The translations under genes were made by a program, and so were the position numbers. The notes below the pieces were generated by a model. That model was not told the DNA's origin and ran no database searches. It worked only from the letters and a program-made list of their open reading frames with translations. 49,551 nucleotides of DNA from Deltaproteobacteria bacterium (GTDB taxonomy: Bacteria > Desulfobacterota > Desulfobacteria > Desulfobacterales > Desulfatibacillaceae): positions 1 through 49,551 of the forward strand of contig JACRLG010000027.1 in NCBI GenBank assembly GCA_016235345.1. The letters run 5' to 3'. Every line of letters starts with the position of its first letter. Within the stretch, counting starts at the first letter, position 1. Shown here piece by piece: positions 14,937 to 29,706 of this stretch.

Positions 14937-15362
14937 CTCGCTTTTGAAGGAAAAGGGCGGCCCTGATTATCCGGTCAAACCTGGGAAAATCATGTGTAAA
15001 ACCCGTTTTTTTCGTGCATGATTGAGCAAAAGATATGATGTGCACGCCCGAAAAACCGGTATTTTTACATCATGCCATGCGCCGTCAGGAAAACGGCATT
15101 GCTGTTGACGCATCAATCATGGAGTATTGATGCGCTTTATTGCAACAACATAATACCACGAAGAAGAAGCAAATGTAAAAATTATCTTTTTTCCGGGTCG
15201 ATATTCCGTTATGTTTAACACACGTTAAAAATAAGCGGGCGCATCAAATCGATTTTTGGAGCATATGGGCATCCTCATGGTTGACAGCGTTGATGCTTCA
15301 ATGGCAATCATGATTTTGGGGTTTTATTGCGGCCTTATATCAGGCATAGCAAGGAGCAACAG
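14937..15362. promoter_or_regulatory. 426-bp divergent intergenic region with GCATCAA boxes
   Basis: Separates the leftward kinase from the rightward CYTH gene. The heptamer gcatcaa or its complement ttgatgc occurs four times: 15110-15116 (+), 15127-15133 (-), 15241-15247 (+) and 15290-15296 (-), that is, two inverted pairs. The first pair extends to a 9-bp perfect inverted repeat (15109-15117/15126-15134). TTGAC promoter-like cores (15105, 15281) abut a box in each pair. A repressor or activator site is a reasonable inference; no regulator gene is next to it. Confidence 0.5.
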
Positions 15363-15974
15363 ATGAACGAATTTATCGAGGCCGAAGTGAAGTTCCACCT
15401 CACTGACCCGCAAAAACTGCGCGACGGGCTTGTTGCCTGCGGCGCTGAATTTTTGGGAAGGGCCTTTGAGACTAACGCGATATGGGACAACGAGCAGGAT
15501 GAGATGGCCGCCCGTGGCGGGCTTCTGCGCCTGCGCCGGGACGGCTCATGCCGTCTTACTGCGAAGCTGCCGCCCGAAAACGCCGATGCGGATTTCAAGG
15601 TAAGCAGGGAATGGGAGGTCACGGTCTCGGATTTTACAGCGATGGAGGCCATTTTGAGGGCCCTGGGGTTTTCGCCCAAAAGGCGCTACGAAAAGGAGAG
15701 GGAAACCTGGCTTATTGGGAAGGTCCACGTGACCCTGGACAGGATGCCCTTCGGGTGGTTTGCCGAGCTTGAGGGCGAAAGGGACGAAATCAGGAGTCTG
15801 GCGGCCCGGCTGGGCTTTTCCTGGGAGCGCCGGATAATACTCACCTACATGAGGATGTTTGAGATCATCAGAAGCGGCGAGGGCCTTTCCGCGACCGAGC
15901 CCACCTTCGATCTCATGAAGGGGGTTTCCGTTCCAATTGAAAGGTACCTTCCGGCCTTCGAGGCCGGGGCGTGA
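15363..15974 (+). CDS. CYTH domain protein (class IV adenylate cyclase CyaB-like)
   Basis: A 203-aa protein of the CYTH superfamily, which binds triphosphates in a beta tunnel. The N-terminal E-x-E-x-K signature is in IEAEVKF; further conserved charged strands are LLRLRRDG, RLTAKLPP, REWEV, KERETW and HVTLDRMPFGWFAELEG. The style matches the CyaB/thermophilic adenylate cyclase branch; thiamine triphosphatase or another triphosphatase activity is equally possible. ATG 15363 is preceded by AAGGAG; an upstream in-frame ATG at 15327 has none. A dispersed hairpin repeat starts 6 nt after its stop. Confidence 0.85.
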   Translation: MNEFIEAEVKFHLTDPQKLRDGLVACGAEFLGRAFETNAIWDNEQDEMAARGGLLRLRRDGSCRLTAKLPPENADADFKVSREWEVTVSDFTAMEAILRALGFSPKRRYEKERETWLIGKVHVTLDRMPFGWFAELEGERDEIRSLAARLGFSWERRIILTYMRMFEIIRSGEGLSATEPTFDLMKGVSVPIERYLPAFEAGA

Positions 15975-15980
15975 GCGCCC

Positions 15981-16096
15981 GTCTAAAACGCGAACTGCCG
16001 CGTCAGATGGGCGCGGGCGGGTCGGAATGTACGAAAAGTAGTATTCCTTCCCGCCCGCGCCCATCTTCCTTGCATTTCACCTTTTTAACCAGGTTT
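15981..16096 (+). repeat. Dispersed hairpin repeat, copy A
   Basis: Outer arms gtctaaaacgcgaactgc and the 3' block ccttgcatttcacctttttaaccagg are shared with the copies at 18370 (inverted) and 26363. The core is a perfect 17-bp stem, agatgggcgcgggcggg (16005-16021) with 16050-16066, topped by a ggaat/attcc stem. It lies between the converging CYTH and tkt genes and may act as a bidirectional terminator. Confidence 0.75.
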
Positions 16097-16122
16097 CACA
16101 TCTTGCCTTTTTCAACAGACTG

Positions 16123-18126
16123 CTACTTTCCCGCCAGTTTCAGGGCTTCTTCAAAAACCTTTTCCGCCGTGAACCCGAATTTTTCCAGCACCGTGTTTCC
16201 GGGCGCGGAAGCGCCGAAATGGTCGATTCCCATCACCTTTCCGGCAGAGCCCGTGAAGCGCTCCCAGCCGTAGGTGACCCCGGCCTCCACGGCAAGGCGT
16301 TTCGTGACTGATGCGGGCAGCACCGATTCGCGGTAGCTTTCATCCTGGGCCGCGAAAAGCTCCCAGGAGGGCATGGAGACAACGCGGGCCTTGACGCCCC
16401 TTTCCGCCAGCTTGTCGGCTGCCGTTACGCAAAGCGCCACTTCCGAGCCGGTGCCGATAAGGATTACGTCGGGAGTCCCGGCGGTGTCCGCCATCACGTA
16501 GGCCCCCCTGGAAAGCCCGGATGCTGCCGAGTACCTGGTCCTGTCGAAAACCGGCAGGTTCTGGCGTGAGAGGATGAGGGCCACGGGCTTTTTGAGGCTT
16601 ACCGCAGTCTTCCAGGCTTCCACCGTCTCGTTGGCGTCCGCCGGACGGATGACGGTAAGCTGTGGGATGATGCGCAAGGATGCGACGTGCTCCACGGGCT
16701 GGTGCGTGGGGCCGTCCTCGCCCACGGCAACGGAGTCGTGGGTCAGAACGTAGATTGCCGAAATTCCCATGAGGGCTGCAACCCTTATGGCCGGGCGCAT
16801 GTAGTCGGAAAAAACCAGGAAGGTTGCGCAATACGGAATCACGCCTCCGTGCAGGCTCATGCCGCTTGTAATGGCGGTCATTGCGTGTTCCCGCACACCG
16901 AAGCGGATGTTGCGGTTATCGAAATGAAGGGGCTCAAAATCGCCCGTGCCAGCAATGATGGTGTTGTTGGATGGGGCAAGGTCCGCCGAGCCGCCCAGCA
17001 TGGTTGGAATTTTGGCGGCTATGGCGTTCAAGGCCTTGCCGGAGGCCGCCCTTGTGGCGACGGGCTTGGTTTCCGGGCCGAAAAAGGGAAGGTCCGCGTC
17101 CCAGCCATCCGGCAGTTTACCGGCAAGAAGGGCCTCGTACTCTGCGGCGATTTCCGGGTGGGCCGCCTTGTATGCGGCAAATTTGCCCTCCCAGTCCTTC
17201 TGGGCCTTTTGGCCCTTTTCCACGCAGCCTCTGAAAACCGAAAGGGCCGTGTCCGGAACCGTGAAGGGCTCCTCGTAGGGCCAGTTGAGATTCTTCTTGG
17301 TGATCAGAATTTCTTCAGCCCCCAAAGGTTCCCCGTGGGCCTTGGGGGAGTCCTGGCGCGCCGGGGAGCCGTGGCCAATGTGGGTTTTTACCATTATGAG
17401 GCAGGGGCGGTCCTTGTCCTCCTTCGCCTCGTCAATGGCGGCGGCAACGGCGGAAAGGTCCGTTCCGTCGGCCACCTTTATCACCTGCCATTTGTAAGCT
17501 GTAAAACGCGCGGCCACGTCCTCCGTAAAGGTGATGTCGGTTTTGCCCTCAATGGAAATCCCGTTGTCGTCGTAAAGGCAGACGAGCTTGGCAAGGCCGA
17601 GGTGCCCCGCAAGGGATGCCGCTTCGCCGGAGATGCCCTCCATCATGCACCCGTCGCCGCAGACCACGTAGGTATAATGGTCAACCACAGGGTGTCCTGG
17701 GCGGTTGAAGCGCGAGGCCAGAAAGCGCTCGGCCATGGCCATTCCCACGGCGTTTGCCACGCCCTGCCCAAGGGGGCCGGTGGTGGTTTCAACGCCCTTG
17801 GTGTGGCGGTATTCGGGGTGCCCTGGAGTCAGGCTTCCCCACTGGCGAAAATTTTTGAGATCGTCAAGGGCGAGGTCGTAGCCGGTGAGGTAAAGCAGGC
17901 TGTACAGAAGCGCCGAGGCATGGCCTGCGGAGAGCACGAAGCGGTCCCGGTCGGGCCAGGAGGGGTCTTTCGGGTTATGCTTCAAAACCCTGGTGAAGAG
18001 CACCGACGCGGGCGCGGCGAATCCCATGGGGGCTCCGGGGTGGCCGGAATTGGCCTTCTGCACCATGTCCATGGAAAGTGTGCGAAGCGAGTTGACACAA
18101 AGCTCGTCCAGATCAATCTTGCTCAT
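16123..18126 (-). CDS. tkt: Transketolase
   Basis: A 667-aa full-length transketolase, a thiamine-diphosphate enzyme moving two-carbon units between sugar phosphates in the pentose phosphate pathway. The ThDP motif [26 protein letters not shown], with DDNGISIEG, lies near residues 155-190. [21 protein letters not shown] and the central FGVREHAM are also seen, as is the C-terminal domain. Start ATG 18126 follows GAAAGGA. Single-gene unit; a hairpin repeat lies beyond its 3' end. Confidence 0.96.
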
Positions 18127-18571
18127 GGAAAATGTCCTTTCAGGCGGATTCGATGTTTCGCAGGGTTTTTGCTAACACGCTCGCCCCGCGATTGCAAACT
18201 GCCATTTTGGGATACGATTTCCAGACTTTCGGCAAACATATCTGCCACTTCTTTAACGGGCGGTCAACGTCATGGGCGAAAATTTTTGAAGAAAATCGCC
18301 ATATTGTTGGGTTTTGCATTCAAAACAGTAATTTGCCGATTGTAAAATTTTTATAAACGGCTTGGTGTTAAGCCTGAATAAAAACGATGAAGCGCAAGGA
18401 ACGTGAAAAGCCAATGAGCCAAGCGTACTAAATGTACGTGGCGGAATTGGCTTTGAAACGTGACACAGCGATTCGCGTTTTTAGACGGGCGGTTAAGGGT
18501 TAGCTCTTGACGCGGAGTGTTCAAGATGGGATTAAGAAGGGTTTTTTAACCGCAACATGGAGCACAAGAAA
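18127..18571. other. 445-bp divergent intergenic region holding repeat copy B
   Basis: Between leftward tkt and the next rightward gene. The tkt side should contain its promoter; TTGACC with a poorly spaced TATGTT is the only candidate seen on the minus strand and is weak. The middle (18370-18490) is an inverted copy of the dispersed hairpin repeat. No reading frame here is convincing. Confidence 0.5.
18370..18485 (-). repeat. Dispersed hairpin repeat, copy B
   Basis: In minus orientation it reads gtctaaaaacgcgaatcgctg, a variable palindromic core, then ccttgcgcttcatcgttttta and ttcaggctt. The core stem is aaagccaat (18407-18415) with attggcttt (18446-18454) and encloses a gtac..gtac inner palindrome. 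The core sequence is unrelated to those of copies A and C. Confidence 0.75.
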
Positions 18572-19276
18572 ATGGATCACGATTTTTCCGAAATTTTCGC
18601 CCGTTACGAGGCCCTTAGAGCCCAGACGGATTCGGCCTTTCTCCGCGTAAGCGAGGCCCACCCGGACTGCGTCGCCTGCAAATCCGGCTGTGCGGACTGC
18701 TGCCACGCCCTTTTTGACCTGTCTTTCATCGAGGCGCTTTACATCAATTCCAAGTTCAACAGCGAGCTGGATGAAAGCAGCAAGGGAAAAATCCTGGAAC
18801 GCGCCGATCAGGCGGATCGCAAGATAGCCCTCATCAAAAAGGAAGCCTATCAGGCCGTCAAAAAGGGCAGAGAGGCCGACGAGGTCCTTTCCCGCGTGGC
18901 CTGGGAGCGCGTGCGCTGCCCCCTTCTTGGGGATGACGACCGCTGCGCCCTGTACGAGCATCGCCCCATAACCTGCCGCCTTTACGGCATCCCCACCTCC
19001 ATCGGCGGCAAGGCCCACACCTGCGGAATGAGCGGCTTTGCGGAAGGGACGCCCTACCCCACCGCCAACCTGGACGCAGTCCACGGACGCCTTCTGGAGC
19101 TTTCGACGGAAATCGTCAAAACCCTCCCAACCAAATACATCGGCCTTACGGACATGCTGGTGCCGCTTTCGATGGCGCTTCTAACCATCTATAACGACGA
19201 ATACCTGGGCATCAGAAAGCCCGCACCGGAGAACGGCGAACCCCAAAAAGCCGGAGATACCGGGAAAGGGGACTGA
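18572..19276 (+). CDS. YkgJ-type cysteine cluster protein
   Basis: A 234-aa protein with the metal-binding cysteine cluster CVACKSGCADCCH (about residues 34-46) and a second set CPLLGDDDRCALYEHRPITCRLYG (about 117-140), the same domain class as the protein at 12192 but otherwise different. Between them is a charged helical region. ATG 18572 has GGAG 9 nt upstream; ATG 18557 is an alternative without a good site. First gene of a tight rightward cluster (2-bp gap to the next). Confidence 0.82.
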   Translation: MDHDFSEIFARYEALRAQTDSAFLRVSEAHPDCVACKSGCADCCHALFDLSFIEALYINSKFNSELDESSKGKILERADQADRKIALIKKEAYQAVKKGREADEVLSRVAWERVRCPLLGDDDRCALYEHRPITCRLYGIPTSIGGKAHTCGMSGFAEGTPYPTANLDAVHGRLLELSTEIVKTLPTKYIGLTDMLVPLSMALLTIYNDEYLGIRKPAPENGEPQKAGDTGKGD

Positions 19277-19278
19277 AA

Positions 19279-19623
19279 ATGGCCATGACCGAGGAGGAGG
19301 AAGGCAAGAAAAAGGCGGTCTTTGACCAGATGCGCCCAAGGAACCAGGCACATATCCTTAAAAAGGGCTATGACAAGTGGGACCCCTTTCTGGTGCCCAA
19401 AGACCCCATAGACATAAGGAAGGACGCCACCAGCCGAACCACCCAGCAGCTCGTGCGGGAGTTTCTCCAGGAAAGGCAGGGGGACGCCCCTTCCCACGCC
19501 TTCAGCCGGGGTGTTCTGGAACTGGCCCTGGGAATAGTGAACAACGAGGAGCGCTTCATAGGCATGTTCGAGTTCGCGGCTTGGTATCAAAGGCTTCTGG
19601 AGCGGGAAAAGGGTGGAAAATAA
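19279..19623 (+). CDS. Small unknown protein between cysteine-cluster and methyltransferase genes
   Basis: I do not recognise this 114-aa soluble, charged protein. It has an acidic/basic N-terminus (MTEEEEGKKK), the segment KKGYDKWDPFLVPKDPIDIRKDATSRTT and a helical C-terminus (RFIGMFEFAAWYQRLLERE). Its start follows the preceding stop by 2 bp and its end overlaps the next gene by 11 bp, so it belongs to the operon and is likely real. Confidence 0.7.
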   Translation: MAMTEEEEGKKKAVFDQMRPRNQAHILKKGYDKWDPFLVPKDPIDIRKDATSRTTQQLVREFLQERQGDAPSHAFSRGVLELALGIVNNEERFIGMFEFAAWYQRLLEREKGGK

Positions 19624-20422
19624 CCCTCTGCCTTCATCCTTTGTTTTGGGCGCGGTAAGCCTTTCCGGGCGTGCGACGCCTTCCGAGATCATCCAAAAGG
19701 CGATGCTTTCCGGATTTTCGAGCCGGGAAGCCAGGAACGCTCTAAAGAAGCTGGTGGACGGCGGCGCTCTTGAGTATGTCTGCGAAAACGCCACAGTTTA
19801 TGCTGTTCCGTCCTTCGCGGCTCCGGTAAGGGTGGGGAGGCGGCTTTTCCTGTGCAGGCCGGGCATGGAGCACTCGCTTCCGTTTGAGGGCGCGATCCCG
19901 GTTATTTTGAGGGAGGGGGCCTCCTTCGGAAGCGGCAGGCATCCAACAACAAGGCTTTGCCTTGGCCTTCTGGACGAGGTTATGGTGGCCATGCCGGAAA
20001 CCCTGTGCGAACAGGCCCTGGACGTTGGCACGGGAAGCGGGGTTCTGGCCATAGCGGCTGTAAAACTGGGCATAAAAAGGGCCATCGGCCTTGACCGGGA
20101 ACCTGACGCAATCGCCGAGGCCCGCAATAACGCGGCCCTAAACGGCGTTTTTGATCGAATAGTTATAAGCGGAGGCGACGCAGGGGCGGTTTCCGGCGGG
20201 TTCTGCCTTATTCTGGCAAACCTTCGCGCGCCAACGCTTGTTTCCCTGGCGGGTTTTTTTTCGGAAAAGCTCCATAAGGGCGGCTTTCTGGTGGTTTCGG
20301 GCCTTCACCCCGAAGAGGCGGATAATTACGAGGCAAAAGCTCAGACAGCAGGTTTGCGGCTGTCCGAAAGGCGCGATGAAGGCGCATGGAGCGGCCTTTC
20401 CTTTCAAAAATCAACGGGTTGA
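19613..20422 (+). CDS. PrmA-like SAM-dependent methyltransferase with N-terminal winged-helix-like region
   Basis: A 269-aa protein. The C-terminal part is a ribosomal protein L11 methyltransferase-like fold: GASFGSGRHPTTRL (102-115), SAM motif I DVGTGSG (137-143), the acidic residue in GLDREPDAI, and LANLRAP (201-207) in place of the usual NIL motif. The N-terminal 70 residues (ATPSEIIQKAMLSGFSSREA, then ARNALKKLVDGGALEY) look like a winged helix rather than the normal PrmA substrate domain, so the target may not be L11. Start GTG 19613 lies 11 bp inside the previous gene. Confidence 0.82.
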   Translation: MENNPLPSSFVLGAVSLSGRATPSEIIQKAMLSGFSSREARNALKKLVDGGALEYVCENATVYAVPSFAAPVRVGRRLFLCRPGMEHSLPFEGAIPVILREGASFGSGRHPTTRLCLGLLDEVMVAMPETLCEQALDVGTGSGVLAIAAVKLGIKRAIGLDREPDAIAEARNNAALNGVFDRIVISGGDAGAVSGGFCLILANLRAPTLVSLAGFFSEKLHKGGFLVVSGLHPEEADNYEAKAQTAGLRLSERRDEGAWSGLSFQKSTG

Positions 20423-20459
20423 ACCCTGAAACCGGGATGCGCCCAAAGGACGGACTAAG

Positions 20460-21098
20460 ATGGAAGAAAAACCCAAAAACGTTGAAGAATACATCGCCAA
20501 GTGGCAGGACGCGGTCAACCTGAACCCCGGCTGCGGGCATTCCCGCTACAACCTTGCAGTGGGGCTCATCGGCCTGCACCGTTTTGAGGAGGCCATAGAG
20601 CACCTTCAGGAAGCCCTGGAAAACTCCCCCAACCTTGCCGAAGCCTACGCACAGCTTGGGGCCATAGCCTTGCATCGCGGCGATCTTGAAGGCTGCCTTC
20701 AATACAACCGCATGGGCGTCAACTCCCGCGCCGGTTTTTCCGTGGGCTGGGCCAACATCGGCTTCTGCCTGCTTCAAAAGGGCGAGGTGGAAGAGGCCGA
20801 GCGGGCGCTCCGTAAGGCCATCGCCTATAATCCCAAGTTCATCCAGGCTTACACGTCGCTTGCTTCCGCCTACTTCATGCAGGGCCTTATTGAAGAAAGC
20901 ATCGAGGCCTGCCGCAAGGCCCTGGAGCTTTCCCCCGAATTCGCCGTGGCCCACGCCAACCTGGCCCTGGCCCTCCTTGAGCAGGGCAACGCGGCGGAAG
21001 CGGCCCATCACAGGGATGAGGCCAAAAAGTACGGCTACGAGGTGCCGGAAGGGCTCTCTACTCAGATAGATGCGGCCTTGCAGGCTGACGGGGGTTAG
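20460..21098 (+). CDS. Tetratricopeptide repeat protein
   Basis: A 212-aa protein made of about five consecutive TPRs; repeats are visible as NPGCGHSRYNLAVGLIGL, SPNLAEAYAQLGAIALHR, SVGWANIGFCLLQKG, NPKFIQAYTSLASAYFMQG and SPEFAVAHANLALALLEQG. No signal peptide. TPRs mediate protein-protein contacts; the partner may be another product of this cluster. The half copy of the dispersed repeat begins at its stop codon. Confidence 0.9.
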   Translation: MEEKPKNVEEYIAKWQDAVNLNPGCGHSRYNLAVGLIGLHRFEEAIEHLQEALENSPNLAEAYAQLGAIALHRGDLEGCLQYNRMGVNSRAGFSVGWANIGFCLLQKGEVEEAERALRKAIAYNPKFIQAYTSLASAYFMQGLIEESIEACRKALELSPEFAVAHANLALALLEQGNAAEAAHHRDEAKKYGYEVPEGLSTQIDAALQADGG

Positions 21099-21129
21099 AA
21101 GCCTGCCTGAAACGCAAACTGCTGTGTCA
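21098..21129 (+). repeat. Dispersed hairpin repeat, half copy D
   Basis: gaagcctgcctgaaacgcaa followed by actgctgtgtca reproduces the 5' arm of copy C (26363 onward). No matching 3' arm follows, so this copy is truncated or rearranged. Confidence 0.65.
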
Positions 21130-21285
21130 TCCATGAGGGTATAGCCCCTGGTGGCCAAGGCTTTTTCGTTGCCGGGGCGCGCCAGCGCAAGAGGTTCTTT
21201 TTTGAGAGTAACCGCCAAGCCTTCCGCGCCGCTTGAATTGGCGGGATATTTTTGAAAGCGGACACAAACCGATCTTTTTGGCCGG

Positions 21286-21672
21286 ATGGAATCGGGTTTG
21301 CCCATGAAAGAGAATCTGGCGATACGATCCAAAATCTGGATAGAGGACGCCGACGGCAAGGTGGTCATAGGCTTCGGCAGGCTGCGGATGTTAAAGGCCA
21401 TAAAACGCCACGGCAGCCTGCACGCGGCGGCCAAGGAGCTTAAAATCGGCTACCGGGCGCTCTGGGCCAGAATTTCCGCCACCGAGGAAAGGCTGGGAGC
21501 CCCCCTTCTGATCAAAAGGCAGGGCGGGGCGTCGGGGGGAGGCTCGGCCCTGACCCCCCTTGGCGAAAAACTTCTTGATGATTTCGAGAAGATCCACACG
21601 CAGGTTGAAAAAACCGCCGACACTCTTTTTGCGGAAACATTCGGGAAGGACAGTCAGGAGCCTTACGATTGA
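21286..21672 (+). CDS. ModE-like winged-helix regulator without molybdate-binding domain
   Basis: A 128-aa (122 from ATG 21304) DNA-binding protein. The block GFGRLRMLKAIKRHGSLHAAAKELKIGYRALWARISATEERLG is the LysR/ModE-type winged helix, followed by LLIKRQGG and LTPLGEKLLDDFEKIH. ModE proteins lacking the C-terminal molbindin domains are common in anaerobes and often regulate metal or anion uptake; no molybdate genes are nearby. Neither start has a clear RBS. Confidence 0.8.
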   Translation: MESGLPMKENLAIRSKIWIEDADGKVVIGFGRLRMLKAIKRHGSLHAAAKELKIGYRALWARISATEERLGAPLLIKRQGGASGGGSALTPLGEKLLDDFEKIHTQVEKTADTLFAETFGKDSQEPYD

Positions 21673-21708
21673 AAACCTTAAAAGGCTTTTGCAGCCAAAT
21701 GCTATGCC

Positions 21709-21996
21709 CTATCCAACAGCTATAAATGCAGCTATTCCGGCTATTACAACACAAGGCAAAAGCTGTAAAAACCATTTATACCGATAATTTTTCAAAAGCG
21801 CCAAACCGGAAAAAATTAACGAAACTGTCAATGGCGTAAATGCGAAAAAAAATACCCACGTCCATGCTCCTTCACACATATGAATATGCTCTGGCGGTAT
21901 GAGTAATTCTATCAACGCCGTGATGCTGAGATAACCGGTAAAAATCGAAAAAAGCAATTCAATGAATCCGAAAATTTTTGAACATTTTGCCGCCAT
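21709..21996 (-). CDS. Small three-helix membrane protein, unknown
   Basis: A 95-aa very hydrophobic protein with three predicted membrane segments (about 8-32, 45-66, 74-94) and a polar loop PPEHIHMCEGAW. Its DNA is far more AT-rich than its neighbours, which suggests recent arrival. Converges with the ModE-like gene. No family recognised; weak GGAG 11 nt upstream of the start. Confidence 0.55.
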   Translation of the reverse strand: MAAKCSKIFGFIELLFSIFTGYLSITALIELLIPPEHIHMCEGAWTWVFFFAFTPLTVSLIFSGLALLKNYRYKWFLQLLPCVVIAGIAAFIAVG

Positions 21997-22112
21997 TTAT
22001 GGATGCGCTCCAAATAGCTTCGTTTCGCAGAGCTTTTCCCCAACAGCATTTAGCGCCTGTAAAAAGGGGGCAGGGCCAAGAGGCCCCGCCCATTTATTTT
22101 TCAAGCCTTGGG

Positions 22113-22439
22113 TTAAAACCTCGGAACCCGCCGTTCCGGCACGAAATCAGGGGCCTTTTTGCCTTCGGCCACTTCGGGGGAGACATAGAGCAGGCAGTAG
22201 CAGCTTCCGAACTCGGCCACGTCATCCGCCCTGTATTTGCAGGGGCAGAAGATGTCCGAATCGATCTCCCGGTCGCCCAACGCAAGCCGGCAGGGGCAGG
22301 ACATGTAGCCGAAGCGGGCCTTGTTCTCGATGAGCCCTTCCAGGACCTCGAAAACCCGCTTTTTGTCCGGGTTGAAAAAATACCCCTTGGGCTCCTGGAT
22401 TTTTTTCAGGGTTTCATACAGCTTTTCCGCGTCCGTCAT
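22113..22439 (-). CDS. Ferredoxin:thioredoxin reductase catalytic subunit-like protein
   Basis: A 108-aa protein with the full cysteine set of the FTR catalytic (beta) subunit: CPC at 48-50, CPC at 65-67 and CYC at 80-82. In plant FTR these hold a [4Fe-4S] cluster and an adjacent redox disulfide that passes ferredoxin electrons to thioredoxin. The plant-type variable subunit is absent here, as is usual in anaerobes. The start overlaps the glutaredoxin stop in ATGA, so the two are coupled and the glutaredoxin is the likely partner. Confidence 0.92.
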   Translation of the reverse strand: MTDAEKLYETLKKIQEPKGYFFNPDKKRVFEVLEGLIENKARFGYMSCPCRLALGDREIDSDIFCPCKYRADDVAEFGSCYCLLYVSPEVAEGKKAPDFVPERRVPRF

Positions 22440-22684
22440 TGATCCAAGGCCTTTCTTATTGCCTCTTCCTTGAAGCCCACTATCACGGTGTCGCCGATGA
22501 TTAAAGTGGGAAAGGAAAGGTTGGGGTTCACCTCCCGCACCGCCTCTATGGCTTCCTTCCTGGCGTCACCGTCCAGCCTGTCCACGTCAACCGCGTCAAA
22601 AGGTACCGAACACTCGTTCAAAAGGGCCTTGGCGCTCTTGCAATGGCTGCACGTGCTAAGAGTGTAAATTTTGATCGGGGGCAT
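22436..22684 (-). CDS. Glutaredoxin-like/NrdH-type redoxin
   Basis: An 82-aa thioredoxin-fold protein with active site C12-S-H-C15 (YTLSTCSHC), the cis-proline in LSFPTLIIGDT, and the C-terminal GFKEEAIRKAL helix. It is shorter than thioredoxin and fits the glutaredoxin/NrdH/MTH-type class. It is probably reduced by the coupled FTR-like protein, giving a ferredoxin-driven disulfide reduction route. Confidence 0.92.
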   Translation of the reverse strand: MPPIKIYTLSTCSHCKSAKALLNECSVPFDAVDVDRLDGDARKEAIEAVREVNPNLSFPTLIIGDTVIVGFKEEAIRKALDQ

Positions 22685-22785
22685 ATGGGGCCTTTCCCTT
22701 AAGGTTATTGATTAGCACTTGAAAGTCCGCTAAAAATAATACGCAATGCGTTCTTTGGCAAGCCCCTTTCACAGGTTAGCCCATC

Positions 22786-23451
22786 ATGGCTGATTCCGAC
22801 ATCATCCTTGTTTTCGTGCGCCTTCCAAGGCCGGGAGAGGTTAAAACCCGGCTCGGAAAAACGATGGGAAACAGGGCCGCTGCCGAAATCTACAGGGCCT
22901 TTGCGGAGGATGTGATGGATACGGTGAAATCAACCGGTTTCGCCTTCCAGGTCCATTTCTCCCCGCCCGGCGAACAAGAGGCGGTCCGGGCCTGGCTGGG
23001 CGGCGTCGATCTTGTCCCGCAGACGCCCGGAGACCTTGGAGCGCGGATGCGAAACGCCCTTGCCGGGGCCTTTCTAAACGGGGCGGAACGGGCGGTGGTT
23101 ATAGGCTCGGACTCGCCCGACCTGCCAAAATCAGCGCTTTCGGAAGCCCTGGACGCCCTAAAGCGACACGACGCGGTGATCGGCCCGGCGGGCGACGGAG
23201 GCTATTACCTCATAGGTTTTTCCAGCAAGGGCTTTTCGCCGGAGGCCTTTTCCGGCCCGGAATGGGGAACCGGGGGTGTTCTGGCCGACACCCTAAGGAT
23301 TCTGGAAAAAGCCGGGGCGAGCCTTCACACGCTTCCGGCCCACTGGGACGTGGACACCAAAGAAGACCTTGATCGTCTGATGGAACGCGCCAAAGGCTCA
23401 TCCTTCATGGAATCGCGCACCATGGCGGCCTTATCGGGGATTCTGCCGTGA
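22786..23451 (+). CDS. TIGR04282 family glycosyltransferase (DUF2064)
   Basis: A 221-aa nucleotidyl/glycosyltransferase-fold protein: the N-terminal FVRLPRPGEVKTRLGK, GSDSPDLPKSAL and IGPAGDGGYYLIG are the family hallmarks. TIGR04282 proteins often sit beside TIGR04283 and have been linked to arsenosugar-like products in some genomes; no arsenic gene is present here, so the substrate is open. It overlaps the next gene by 4 bp (GTGA). Confidence 0.9.
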   Translation: MADSDIILVFVRLPRPGEVKTRLGKTMGNRAAAEIYRAFAEDVMDTVKSTGFAFQVHFSPPGEQEAVRAWLGGVDLVPQTPGDLGARMRNALAGAFLNGAERAVVIGSDSPDLPKSALSEALDALKRHDAVIGPAGDGGYYLIGFSSKGFSPEAFSGPEWGTGGVLADTLRILEKAGASLHTLPAHWDVDTKEDLDRLMERAKGSSFMESRTMAALSGILP

Positions 23452-24122
23452 AGCTCTCCGTCATCATCCCCACCTTGAACGAGGACAAACGCCTGCCGGG
23501 GCTTTTGAATTTTCTCGCCGGAAAAGGCCTCGAAATCATAGTGGCCGACGGCGGAAGCGGCGACGGAACAGCCGCCATTGCACGCTCCTTCACGCCACTG
23601 GTCGTGATCTCCCCTCCTGGTCGCGGAATCCAGATGGCCCGTGGCGCAAGGCTCGCAACCGGCGACGTTTTGCTTTTCCTGCACGCGGACACCCTGCTTC
23701 CGGGCGCTTTCAAGGCCATTATCGAAAGGGCGCTTTCAAGGCAGGGGGCGGTTTTCGGGGCCTTCCGGCTGGACATCAGGCCCATCTCACCCGCCCTTCG
23801 CCTCATCCGGCTTGGGGCCAACCTGCGAACCCGGCTTTTCTCGCTTCCCTACGGAGACCAGGCGGTTTTTGTCCGGCGGAGCGTTTACGAAAAACTGGGG
23901 GGCTTTGCCGAAATCCCCATAATGGAAGACGTCGAACTCGCCCTCCGCCTCAAAAAGGCCGGGCGCTTCGTAATGGCAGAGGGCAGCGCCGTGACCAGCG
24001 CCCGCCGCTTTGAAAAGGAAGGCGCGTTAATGGCCTGGCTCAGAAACCAGAACCTTTTATGGCGCTATCTTCTGGGAACCCCGCCGGAAAACCTGCTCCC
24101 GCGCTATCGCCCCGTAAGGTGA
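23448..24122 (+). CDS. TIGR04283 family GT2 glycosyltransferase
   Basis: A 224-aa family-2 glycosyltransferase: SVIIPTLNEDKRLPGLL, VADGGSGDGT, LLFLHADTLLPGAF (DxD-like HAD) and PIMEDVELALRLKKAGR with the ED(V/L) catalytic base. It usually pairs with TIGR04282, as here. Start is GTG 23448 inside the upstream stop. Confidence 0.9.
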   Translation: MKLSVIIPTLNEDKRLPGLLNFLAGKGLEIIVADGGSGDGTAAIARSFTPLVVISPPGRGIQMARGARLATGDVLLFLHADTLLPGAFKAIIERALSRQGAVFGAFRLDIRPISPALRLIRLGANLRTRLFSLPYGDQAVFVRRSVYEKLGGFAEIPIMEDVELALRLKKAGRFVMAEGSAVTSARRFEKEGALMAWLRNQNLLWRYLLGTPPENLLPRYRPVR

Positions 24123-24132
24123 AGGCTCTGCC

Positions 24133-24864
24133 TTAGAGTTCATCGGCTGAAAAAGCCTCGCCGTGACCGGGATATATGATTCTCGCCCCCCTGTCCAAAA
24201 GGAGCCGCCAACTGTTGTGCAATATATCTATATTTTCGGCAAAGGGCGGCTTGCGGGTTTTGGCCAGAAAAGGAAGCTCGTTATAGGCGAGATCGCCCAC
24301 AAAGGCCCGCCCGTCGTCCGTGAGAACTGTGATCGAGTCTTTCGTGTGGCCCGGAGTTGGAATGGCCCTGGCCGAAAAGCCCCAGGGCTCAAGGGATGTT
24401 TCTTCGTTTACGTAAAGGTCCGCCCTCACCGGCTCGTAGCGGGTCACCCAGGCCGTGACTGACGGAAACCTTCGGGCCAGCCGCACCAACTGGCGGGTGA
24501 GGAAAATCTGCCCGCCGGGAATCGACATTTCCCCGTGTGCCAGGGCATCGGCCCCGGCCTCGTGAACCATCACGGGACACCCGCTGGCCTTAACCACCCC
24601 GGCAAGCCCGCCCACGTGATCGTAATGAACGTGGGTGACGATGCCGAGTTTCAGCATGTCGGGCCGTATGGCAAGATCGTTCATTTTTTGAACGATACGT
24701 CCGCCCGCGCCGGGGACTCCCGCATCGATCAGAACGTATCCGGCCCGGCCCTTTAAAAGGTAGGCCCTGGCCATGCCGAGTTTCAAGGTATGGATCGTGT
24801 CCAAAATTTTGCTCCCGAATTTGAACCACAGGTTTAGGCAGGCCTTTTTGCGCCCGGTAATCAT
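24133..24864 (-). CDS. MBL-fold metallohydrolase
   Basis: A 243-aa metallo-beta-lactamase fold hydrolase. The dinuclear metal motif is T-H78-V-H80-Y-D82-H83-VGG, with later ligands in PTPGHTKDS, FVGDLAY and YPGHGEAF. It resembles the broad glyoxalase-II-like/quorum lactonase-like group; the substrate cannot be told. Converges with the glycosyltransferase pair. Confidence 0.9.
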   Translation of the reverse strand: MITGRKKACLNLWFKFGSKILDTIHTLKLGMARAYLLKGRAGYVLIDAGVPGAGGRIVQKMNDLAIRPDMLKLGIVTHVHYDHVGGLAGVVKASGCPVMVHEAGADALAHGEMSIPGGQIFLTRQLVRLARRFPSVTAWVTRYEPVRADLYVNEETSLEPWGFSARAIPTPGHTKDSITVLTDDGRAFVGDLAYNELPFLAKTRKPPFAENIDILHNSWRLLLDRGARIIYPGHGEAFSADEL

Positions 24865-25138
24865 TAAAATCGAGCCCCCCCGGCCCTGGAGGCAAAATCG
24901 CAGGTCACCGCCGTTGACGCGGACGCCTTAGTCTGATAGCATGGAAAGATGACGGGAATAAGGCTTATCCGTGCAAATTCTCACAGGCGAAAAAATCGGC
25001 GCATCAGGCACGATGTTGAACCGGCCCCTGCAAGGTCCGGGCAAATCTGTCAACGCATGAAATAATTCTTACCGGTTCATCGTTCGATTAATCAATATAG
25101 GCTTTGGCAACCCGAAAAATATATAGCGAAAATCTGCC
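24865..25138. other. Divergent intergenic region
   Basis: 274 bp between the leftward MBL gene and the rightward phosphatase. The last 70 bp before 25139 are AT-rich (gattaatcaatatagg, aaaatatatagcg) and probably hold the phosphatase promoter. No further gene or strong hairpin seen. Confidence 0.4.
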
Positions 25139-26362
25139 ATGCGAGCCCCCAGAATACTGATAGCCCTGCCTGATGAAAACAAGCGCCGGAGCTTGTCCGA
25201 GTGCCTGATCAACTGGGGCTACCAGATCACGCCCGCCTCCGACGGTTTAAGCGCCTGGGACATCATAGAAAACGACGGGATATGGCTGGTTATCGCAAGC
25301 GTGGCGCTTGCGGGAATCGACGGCCTGGAGCTCACCCGGCGAATCAGGGCCGCCGGTCTTTCGTCCTACCTCTACGTGGTTCTCATTACAAGCCAGGAAA
25401 AGGAGGCCGACCTTCTCCAGGCGATGGAGGCCGGAGCCGACGAATTCGTCCTGGAGCCCTTCGGCCCGGAGGAAATCAGGGCCAGAATCCTGGTGGCCGA
25501 ACGCATACGCCAACTGGAGGAAAGCCTTGAGCTTCGGCACAAGGAGCTCTGGGAGACCAACCAGCGCTTAAGCCGCGCCCAGGACGTGATCACCCGCGAC
25601 CTGGAAGCGGCGGCGCGAATCCAGCAGGGGCTTTTGCCCGTTTCCACCAACAACCTTTACGGGTACAGCTTCGAGTCCCTGTTCATTCCGTGCAACGTGG
25701 TGGGCGGGGACATGTTCAACTTCTTCCCGGTGGACAGCCAACACCTGGCCTTCTACCTCCTGGATGTTTCGGGCCACGGGATACCGGCTGCCATGCTTTC
25801 CGTGGCGGTTTCCAAGACCATATCGTCTCTTCCCTTCCACGAAAACCTGCTCAGGGGCGGTACCAGCGATCTTCCGGGCCACGAGATGACCTCTCCGGCC
25901 TCTGTGGTGCGCGAGCTGGACCAGCTTTTCCAGACCAACGCCCTCATGGAGCAGTACTTCACCATGATCTATGGGGTCCTCAACAAGGAGACCGGCGAGA
26001 CCTGCTTCACCCAAGCGGGCCACCCGCATCCGGCCTACGTGCCCCACGTGGGCGAGCCTCACCTTGTGGGCGCGGGCGGGCTTCCGGTCGGGCTTGTACA
26101 GGATGCGGATTTCGCCGAAACCAGCATGGTTCTTTACGAAAACGACAGGCTCTTTCTGTATTCCGACGGCATAGTGGAATGCTCAAACCAGGAAGGCGCG
26201 CGTTTCGGAACAGACGGCCTTCTGGGCTTTCTCACCCACAACAGGGACCTTCCCCTTCACATGCTCATGCGAAGGCTGGGGGAGGAAATTTACCGTTTTC
26301 ACGGCAGCGACAATTTTGAAGACGATATGAGTGTCCTCGTAATCGAACGCAACGGCTCTTAG
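25139..26362 (+). CDS. RsbU-like PP2C phosphatase with degenerate receiver domain
   Basis: A 407-aa protein: receiver-like domain (1-120), a coiled coil (about 122-160), and a SpoIIE/RsbU PP2C-type serine phosphatase (about 165-405) with VVGGDMFNF, DVSGHGIPAAMLS, QAGHPHPAYV, LYSDGIVECS and DDMSVLVIE, all metal-site blocks present. The receiver lacks the phospho-acceptor Asp: the equivalent residue is S54 (eight before G62 of GIDG), and the conserved Lys before PF is E106. It is therefore unlikely to be controlled by classical phosphorylation. Such phosphatases usually dephosphorylate an anti-sigma-factor antagonist; none is adjacent. Confidence 0.92.
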   Translation: MRAPRILIALPDENKRRSLSECLINWGYQITPASDGLSAWDIIENDGIWLVIASVALAGIDGLELTRRIRAAGLSSYLYVVLITSQEKEADLLQAMEAGADEFVLEPFGPEEIRARILVAERIRQLEESLELRHKELWETNQRLSRAQDVITRDLEAAARIQQGLLPVSTNNLYGYSFESLFIPCNVVGGDMFNFFPVDSQHLAFYLLDVSGHGIPAAMLSVAVSKTISSLPFHENLLRGGTSDLPGHEMTSPASVVRELDQLFQTNALMEQYFTMIYGVLNKETGETCFTQAGHPHPAYVPHVGEPHLVGAGGLPVGLVQDADFAETSMVLYENDRLFLYSDGIVECSNQEGARFGTDGLLGFLTHNRDLPLHMLMRRLGEEIYRFHGSDNFEDDMSVLVIERNGS

Positions 26363-26488
26363 GAAGCCTGTATAAAAACGCGAACTGCTGTGTCAGGCAT
26401 CGTAGCGCGGGTCGGTCATATACGAACAGTATTATTCCTCCCCGCGCTTCTCGCCTTCCTTGCATTTCATCGTTTTTATCCAGGCTTC
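26363..26488 (+). repeat. Dispersed hairpin repeat, copy C
   Basis: The clearest copy. The outer arms gaagcctgtataaaaacg (26363-26380) and cgtttttatccaggcttc (26471-26488) pair at 17 of 18 positions, and an inner stem agcgcggg (26404-26411)/cccgcgct (26441-26448) forms the variable core. It starts at the base after the phosphatase stop codon. Confidence 0.8.
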
Positions 26489-26597
26489 TTGCCAACCCAT
26501 TTAACAGGCGATTACATGCCTACAAGTTAGTAATGTTTATCACAGACAACTCTGCGCGGCGTTTTTGCGTGAGATAAATCGGGAGACGGGTTTCAAC

Positions 26598-29544: not shown

Positions 29545-29706
29545 TGAGCTTATCCCTAAATAATATTTACATTCGATTGTGGCTTCATCCCAACCAACTG
29601 TGTTGCCCTCCTCACGGCATCGCTCGCTATGCCGTGAGGAGATGCGCCTTGTTGGTTGGGCGAATCCGCAATCTCGCTGTCACAATCTTATTTAGGGATA
29701 AACTCT
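29545..29706. mobile_element. MITE-like non-autonomous relative of the IS at position 1
   Basis: A 162-bp non-coding element. Left end tgagcttatccctaaataa and right end (reverse strand) agagtttatccctaaataa form terminal inverted repeats. The left end matches the IS left end, including subterminal taatatttaca, at about 25 of 28 bases; the right end matches the IS right end through taaataag. Inside, cccaaccaac (29589-29598)/gttggttggg (29651-29660) and a perfect 13-bp stem ctcctcacggcat (29608-29620)/29629-29641 fold the middle into a long hairpin. Confidence 0.8.
29608..29641. repeat. Perfect 13-bp stem inside the MITE
   Basis: ctcctcacggcat, loop cgctcgct, atgccgtgaggag. It is nested within the 10-bp cccaaccaac/gttggttggg arms. 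Confidence 0.8.

Follow-up and report, generated by a model that had tools for sequence, protein, structure and literature searches.

We analysed a 49,551-nt stretch of contig JACRLG010000027.1 from a deltaproteobacterium of the Desulfatibacillaceae (this whole stretch is called the window here), which carries a dispersed hairpin element of about 119 nt in three full copies and one half copy. The element is probably a non-autonomous mobile DNA hairpin that resembles miniature inverted-repeat transposable elements (MITEs) and REPINs (hairpin-forming doublets of repetitive extragenic palindromic (REP) sequences); it would insert in or beside stop codons, and its fold would be under selection. 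The copies in the window were scored with a covariance model, filters off; the model was built from 67 copies, which include the window copy at 18372-18490 and not those at 15977-16094 and 26366-26485. The features are:

15977..16094, plus strand: full hairpin element, somewhat decayed (80 bits, E 2.4e-22)
16110..16124, plus strand: outer right terminal repeat of the copy at 15977-16094, a second complement of the left arm (approximate match TTTCAACAGACTGCT, at most 4 errors)
18372..18490, minus strand: full hairpin element (130 bits, E 9.6e-38)
21101..21130, plus strand: decayed left half of an element (left-arm match with 2 mismatches)
26366..26485, plus strand: full hairpin element (125 bits, E 4.7e-36)
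26499..26513, plus strand: outer right terminal repeat of the copy at 26366-26485 (approximate match ATTTAACAGGCGATT, at most 4 errors)

The original prediction had described three full copies and a half copy, three of these four starting at most about 7 nt past a stop codon. The covariance model confirmed the full copies, with ends within about 5 nt of those first proposed, and the distance from the stop codon is 2 nt for the copy at 15977 (after a CYTH-domain gene, 15327-15974), 3 nt for the copy at 26366 (after a response-regulator/SpoIIE phosphatase gene, 25139-26362, assigned with Pfam), and 2 nt for the half copy (after a TPR gene, 20460-21098). The copy at 18372-18490 lies between two divergent genes, encoding a transketolase and a CxxCxxCC-domain protein. 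Four matches to the left-arm pattern in the window compare with 0.03 expected, and none of 100 shuffles reached four. On both strands, the folds of the full copies are much more stable than those of 200 shuffles, with z-scores from -6.4 to -9.2 (-7.4 on the plus and -8.3 on the minus strand for 15977..16094), and in all three the antisense strand folds to a lower energy than the sense strand. The half copy scores 11 bits (E 0.43) with the covariance model and folds no better than shuffles (z +0.75), and no right arm was seen within the next 170 nt.

A genome-wide scan brought up many further copies of the predicted repeat. In the window's own genome (G000), the left-arm pattern gave 338 matches with at most 3 mismatches and the reversed-pattern control none; in the genome of a sister species of the same genus (G001), there were 192 matches with 2 in the reversed control, and the other 38 genomes of the same search had 0-4, which is the control level. 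The structure model confirmed at least 150 copies in G000, as all 150 candidates scored passed. Forty tiles of 20 kb, which were taken from G000 contigs already known to carry copies and are thus not random, contained at least 106 model matches with E 1e-10 or better, about one per 7.5 kb.

The family extends well beyond this genus. Counting the window's own genome, the covariance model matches 50 of 116 genomes of the order (E 1e-5 or better) and 81 of 297 genomes of the phylum (E 1e-7 or better), where the copy counts per genome are lower bounds as few candidates were scored in each. Deeper scoring gave at least 145 copies in G027, 67 in G103, 50 in G003, and 45 in G077; the 5.1-Mb genome G112 has at least 36, and G103 (98% complete) contains 601 terminal-repeat matches with at most 2 mismatches. 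Of 194 genomes of the order, 114 (from 76 of 121 genera) contain an exact 19-mer from the ends frequent in other genera, which G000 lacks; the control had three matches in total. Eleven loci were inspected (9 from the order and 2 from other parts of the phylum; most other model matches were not), and what they have in common is not merely a hairpin but also variants of the blocks CTGCGTTGCGC, GTAC-loop-GTAC, and GCGCCTTG. The 13 named contigs matched by the core pattern are metagenome-assembled genomes of Desulfobacterales, Desulfobacteraceae, or Deltaproteobacteria. A 20-mer of the element is present in five stretches of viral contigs, four of which give model matches; two of these four, which are possibly one sequence, each have a pair of matches that score 48-50 bits.

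Two observations on the arrangement of copies may be added here. The IMG/VR contigs L263 and L266 contain full elements, one of which, in L263, has AAAGCAT on both sides, and this suggests that phages carry elements. At L131 in G003 and L114 in G001, elements stand in tandem, with two or three of them in the space of several hundred bases.

In 0.94 Mb of G000, we found 106 copies with both arms, and the 57-108 nt between these arms leave no room for a transposase gene. One paired copy (C28:51879) resembles a chance match and was excluded from later alignments. The consensus fold from a MAFFT alignment that included long flanks was poor, and this alignment was replaced by an almost gap-free one of 67 of the 106 copies, covering four common arm-length classes. 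The structure of the element is clearly conserved. In these 67 copies, 93.6% of the 2412 cells of the rod of about 119 nt are paired, and pairing falls to 38-47% when the partner is slid by 1-3 columns as a control. The pairing is maintained through change, as 24 of the 36 stem pairs vary on both sides, double changes are seen in 390 cells, compared with 128 in shuffles (none of 500 shuffles was as high), and the nine strongest mutual-information values all fall on stem pairs. The stem pair 31-93 even shows all four Watson-Crick types (GC 35, CG 20, TA 7, AT 4). The paired segments of the rod are separated by fixed mismatches: all 67 copies have C.A at column pair 16.108, 20.104 is mostly C.T (33) or T.C (27), with CG 5, TT 1, and TA 1, and 29.95 is C.T 53, T.G 9, and C.A 5 and never a Watson-Crick pair.

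Some variants of this structure were noted in passing. A smaller hairpin, CCCAAGAA..TTCTTGGG, sits in the apical loop of some G000 and G001 elements (L025:1568-1590 and 11 other loci) and may be a nested insertion or an older, long form of the element. A subclass with other outer arms, AGGGCG..CGCCCT, and C/G-rich letters on either side (G000:C23:110496, C23:143927, and C24:138031) has the same kind of interior as the main element.

The inner parts had been described as unrelated between copies, which proved incorrect, since the same core types recur throughout G000 and one apical motif is found both at 15977 and at 26366. In the 67 copies, the corrected and normalised mutual information between the two arms of one stem segment is 0.94 in the second stem, 0.89 in the third, and 0.84 in the fourth; the apical stem has 0.78 and the outermost one only 0.38. 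Between different segments, the values are -0.08 to -0.02 (S2-S4), -0.04 to 0.07 (S1-S4), 0.05 to 0.13 (S3-S4), 0.21 to 0.28 (S2-S3), and 0.32 to 0.57 (S4-S5), and 50 three-segment combinations occur among the 67 copies. For 193 model matches in G000, the arms gave 0.71-0.81, S2-S4 -0.07 to 0.03, S1-S4 0.03 to 0.05, and S3-S4 0.29-0.32. The stem segments are nearly independent of one another, with their own two arms linked, and this is weaker in G001. It therefore looks as if symmetrical exchange or replacement of interiors has taken place, and more readily in G000 than in G001.

The signs of mobility come from terminal repeats, target duplications, and empty sites. Elements of other genera have the terminal inverted repeat GAYGGNYTCGTAAAAAGTC and its complement and are mostly 153-155 nt long when the outer right repeat is included; in G000 these repeats are partial, with an outer right repeat in 38 of 106 copies (at most 4 errors). 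Among 15 elements of other genera, one of them without a left flank, exact 6-bp direct repeats flank the outer repeats in six, and a seventh has 7 bp; shuffled controls had a mean of 0.47 and a largest value of 3 in 1000 shuffles. The six come from a stricter rule, as a first duplication test, in which some left ends were misplaced, was near chance, and further cases exist that were chosen for having such repeats. Comparison with copy C10:63096 of G000 revealed an empty site in G001 (L104), and one copy was seen by eye to separate two genes that in G001 are 10 nt apart. The orthologous 320-nt intergenic region of G001 (L216) has no such hairpin as that at 18372-18490, and the 80 nt downstream of the G001 gene orthologous to that before the half copy (L224) showed no trace of it.

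The element often sits at gene ends beyond the window, too. With G000 genes called by a hexamer model made for this analysis, the upstream gene was co-oriented with 87 of the 106 paired copies and opposite to 19, and the distance from the stop codon to the element was exactly 2 nt in 40 of the 106, 1 nt in 9, and 3 nt in 4. In seven copies, which include the chance match, the upstream gene ends within the left arm. In G001, 82 of the 103 copies with a called upstream gene were co-oriented, and the gap was 2 nt in 35 of 117. Among the 74 co-oriented G000 copies with gaps from -2 to 100 nt, 40 (54%) had 2 nt and 53 (72%) had 1-3 nt. As the 100 nt after a stop codon contain on average 2.6 stop-like triplets (744 genes), the stop would draw about 28% of insertions by chance if insertion needs such a triplet, so that the gene-end bias can be part target and part selection or preference. 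At L123 and L143, the remainder of the original stop codon was found by eye on the far side, 3' of an exact or near duplication, as if the element had inserted after the T of the stop and its GA had restored it. The protein encoded before the copy at 26366 stops no more than about 2 residues away from the C-terminal ends of three of four homologues; the fourth is slightly longer.

To follow copies between species, 117 G001 and 193 G000 copies were compared, and six probable shared insertions were found at which the offset from the upstream flank to the element agreed within 6 nt. Five of the six were among 12 candidate sites compared earlier; the other seven of these had weaker evidence and were not counted. 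In five sites, the upstream alignment ends 0-14 nt from the element; in one, it breaks off 294 nt before it. Downstream flanks agree to within 12 nt in three sites and are shifted by 55-57 nt in two, one site has none, and at least the first 50 nt past the element fail to align. At two of the sites, the copies of both species have outer-arm sequences seldom found in the set (GACCG/CGGTC and GAGAACG/CGTTCTC), which argues for descent. Of 210 stem pairs, 164 are unchanged, 38 are double-changed and paired in both species, 6 have one-sided changes, and 2 are double-changed and unpaired. Copies thus probably persist in place as hairpins, with changes matched on both arms.

To look for an autonomous partner, we inspected 20 loci in which terminal repeats are solitary or far apart; 15 of these loci had a frame of at least 110 codons. 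Up to two frames per locus were listed, and 17 of them, together with one in L166, were scanned against Pfam. Fifteen of these 18 open frames beside or between the ends match ordinary Pfam families, including biotin ligase, ABC transporter, URO-D, PP2C, flagellin, GtrA, and a restriction-type helicase (L178), three match none, and none is a transposase; the 736-bp end pair in L166 encloses the GtrA-like frame.

Several observations weigh against a mobile hairpin with a selected fold. No transposase with the ends of the element was found at the loci examined (whole genomes were not read for one), and flank identity in G000 was at chance level for the 38 outer-repeat copies of the 106, of which 3 have a 5- or 6-letter flank match at some offset. 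Among 70 G001 flanks alignable to sampled G000 sequence, 44 point to places without a listed copy. The shared sites could partly be independent insertions at the same gene end, as both flanks are consistent (within 12 nt) in only three of six. The separation of segments is weaker in G001 (0.60-0.93 between arms and 0.07-0.50 between segments), and the 193 G000 and 117 G001 matches were aligned with the structure model, which biases them towards pairing. What is observed on the other side is the high copy number, the paired rod with its fixed mismatches, the duplications in other genera, the empty sites, and the gene-end position.

The most serious alternative, which we nevertheless regard as unlikely, is a cis-acting RNA of the 3' untranslated region (3'-UTR), i.e., an mRNA stabiliser, processing site, or terminator that is conserved for its RNA function and seldom mobile. 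The strong sense orientation and stop-codon position in both G000 and G001 would suit such an RNA, as would the hairpins retained at the probable shared sites. However, G.U wobble on the sense strand is no commoner than the unpairable A.C: we counted GT 7 and AC 37 in the 67 copies when one constant column is left aside, GT 36 and AC 122 in the 193 G000 matches, and GT 41 and AC 52 in the 117 G001 matches; a few columns hold much of the AC count (25 of the 37 are in two columns). Opposed unpaired positions on the plus strand were C.T, T.C, or T.T 1104 times and purine-purine 26 times (128 copies from two genomes), and pyrimidine-pyrimidine mismatches on the sense strand mean purine-purine mismatches on the antisense strand. 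The scarcity of wobble and the kind of mismatch thus give no support for selection on an RNA read in the direction of the upstream gene and, together with the folding energy of the three window copies, mildly favor the antisense strand. A known RNA family was not found either: Rfam 15 gave no match at the gathering score within the window, and a search of five loci with E up to 1 returned one tRNA and two matches far below gathering scores. An intrinsic terminator was rejected as well, as a simple scan flagged none of the three full window copies and, by eye, one copy separates genes whose distance in G001 is 10 nt. Of the two readings that the original prediction had offered, the MITE- or REP-like element that exchanges cores largely stood, on the basis of mobility and the near-independent cores, whereas wobble and mismatches lent no support to an RNA structure read from the sense strand.

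A less probable alternative is that template switching during replication rewrites one arm from the other, so that pairing would arise by mutation and not by selection. One-sided intermediates are indeed few, and arms are linked while other segments are not. However, such copying should erase mismatches, yet the column pairs 16.108, 20.104, and 29.95 keep theirs, and the same architecture recurs in other genera.

It is very improbable that the element is a true REPIN mobilised by a REP-associated tyrosine transposase (RAYT; Y1/TnpA-REP), even though conserved inverted ends around a spacer hairpin with compensated changes are the plan of REPINs in the parts of PMC3116915 consulted. The link to TnpA-REP that had been proposed was searched for and not found. 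No match to PF01797 (Y1) exists in G103 (98% complete) or G001 (83% complete), and the only match in G000 (L119, G000:C17:83390-86629) is flanked by its own palindrome gggcgagacgcccgcgctcccagg, which is unrelated to the element. The 92 kb around 31 Y1 loci contain two elements, little above background (as in G112, with at least 36 copies in 5.1 Mb) and without clear enrichment, and mobilisation by RAYT/Y1 was rejected on these grounds. Y1 transposition is moreover not expected to produce target duplications.

Integron attC sites are imperfect palindromes just after a stop codon that act as a folded bottom strand, with structure conserved rather than sequence. The element is similar in size, stop-codon position, and folded bottom strand, and we give an attC-like recombination site almost no weight, as copies are dispersed beside core genes, target duplications occur in other genera, and, of six element-bearing genomes, an integron integrase above the cut-off is present in G103 and G027 and missing in G000, G001, G101, and G077. 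Since Y1 transposases and integron integrases are missing from some element-rich genomes, neither is required.

The element was not found described in our searches of the open-access literature, and it has likenesses to several known systems. As judged from the consulted parts of PMC3116915, it shares with the REPINs of Pseudomonas the inverted conserved ends, a less conserved hairpin spacer with compensatory changes, and hundreds of extragenic copies; it differs in that no dependence on RAYT was found, in the 6-bp target duplications of other genera, in covariation along the whole rod including the ends, in its fixed mismatches and stop-codon peak, and in having relatives in many genera. Like MITEs, the element is short, lacks its own transposase, and has terminal inverted repeats (partial in G000). 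The MITEs ERIC, NEMIS/Correia, RUP, and YPAL are, in the portion of PMC2229807 consulted, also stem-loops of about 100-200 bp, most with terminal repeats and duplications. YPAL duplications are given there as 3-26 bp, with targets at or beside dyad symmetry, in contrast to 6 bp (in other genera) and gene ends for our element, and a nested symmetric exchange of stem segments was not found described in that portion. REPs with a GTAG or CGTC tag resemble the element in that their stem sequences vary by complementary changes between subfamilies, but they are 20-40 bp long with frequent GT pairing, according to the sections of PMC3733652 consulted, whereas the element has about 119 nt and rare GT pairing. 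A GTAG/CGTC head motif at the foot of the stem was not seen on reading the G000 ends, which are RACAGCC/GGCTGT, and CGTC occurs in element ends only as paired bases in other genera. From attC sites, which it resembles as an imperfect palindrome just past the stop codon with structure conserved over sequence, the element differs in its dispersal, its duplications in other genera, and the integrase missing in four of six genomes searched.

Apart from the element, the window contains a second repeat, GAGCTTATYCSTAAATAATATT, at 2-28, 29546-29572, and 29684-29705, twice direct and once inverted 116 nt away. It resembles the ends of a further small palindromic element; its 18-letter form had no exact match in the 416 loci searched.

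A mobile hairpin of this kind would be moved in trans by a separate enzyme that recognises it through its ends and its folded strand. What the enzyme recognises may be single-stranded or extruded DNA of the strand that is antisense to the gene upstream. Insertion would take place in or beside a stop codon, with the first letters of the element presumably restoring the stop. The sequence would then drift by compensated change and by exchange of hairpin interiors between copies, and each copy might stay folded through selection on its fold, which would serve mobility and perhaps also act as a 3'-UTR hairpin that shapes mRNA ends.

More tentatively, and with less confidence than in mobility itself, we propose as a possibility that the element is a stack of exchangeable rungs and, at the same time, a self-sealing gene-end insert whose copies are then retained at their sites in folded form. 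Interior segments might be swapped on both arms together when folded copies recombine or when replication switches template from one to another, so that linkage would be kept across the arms, about 80 nt apart, and lost along one arm at about 20 nt, while the element would settle in stop codons and bring the letters that restore them.

Taken together, the mobile hairpins form a large family in Desulfobacterales and their relatives; some genomes contain hundreds of copies, and many copies lie at gene ends. Its stop-codon position is a clear case of insertion that leaves the hit gene intact. The dense covariation allows testing how non-coding mobile DNA keeps its shape while its sequence turns over, and could separate selection, arm copying, and exchange between folded copies.

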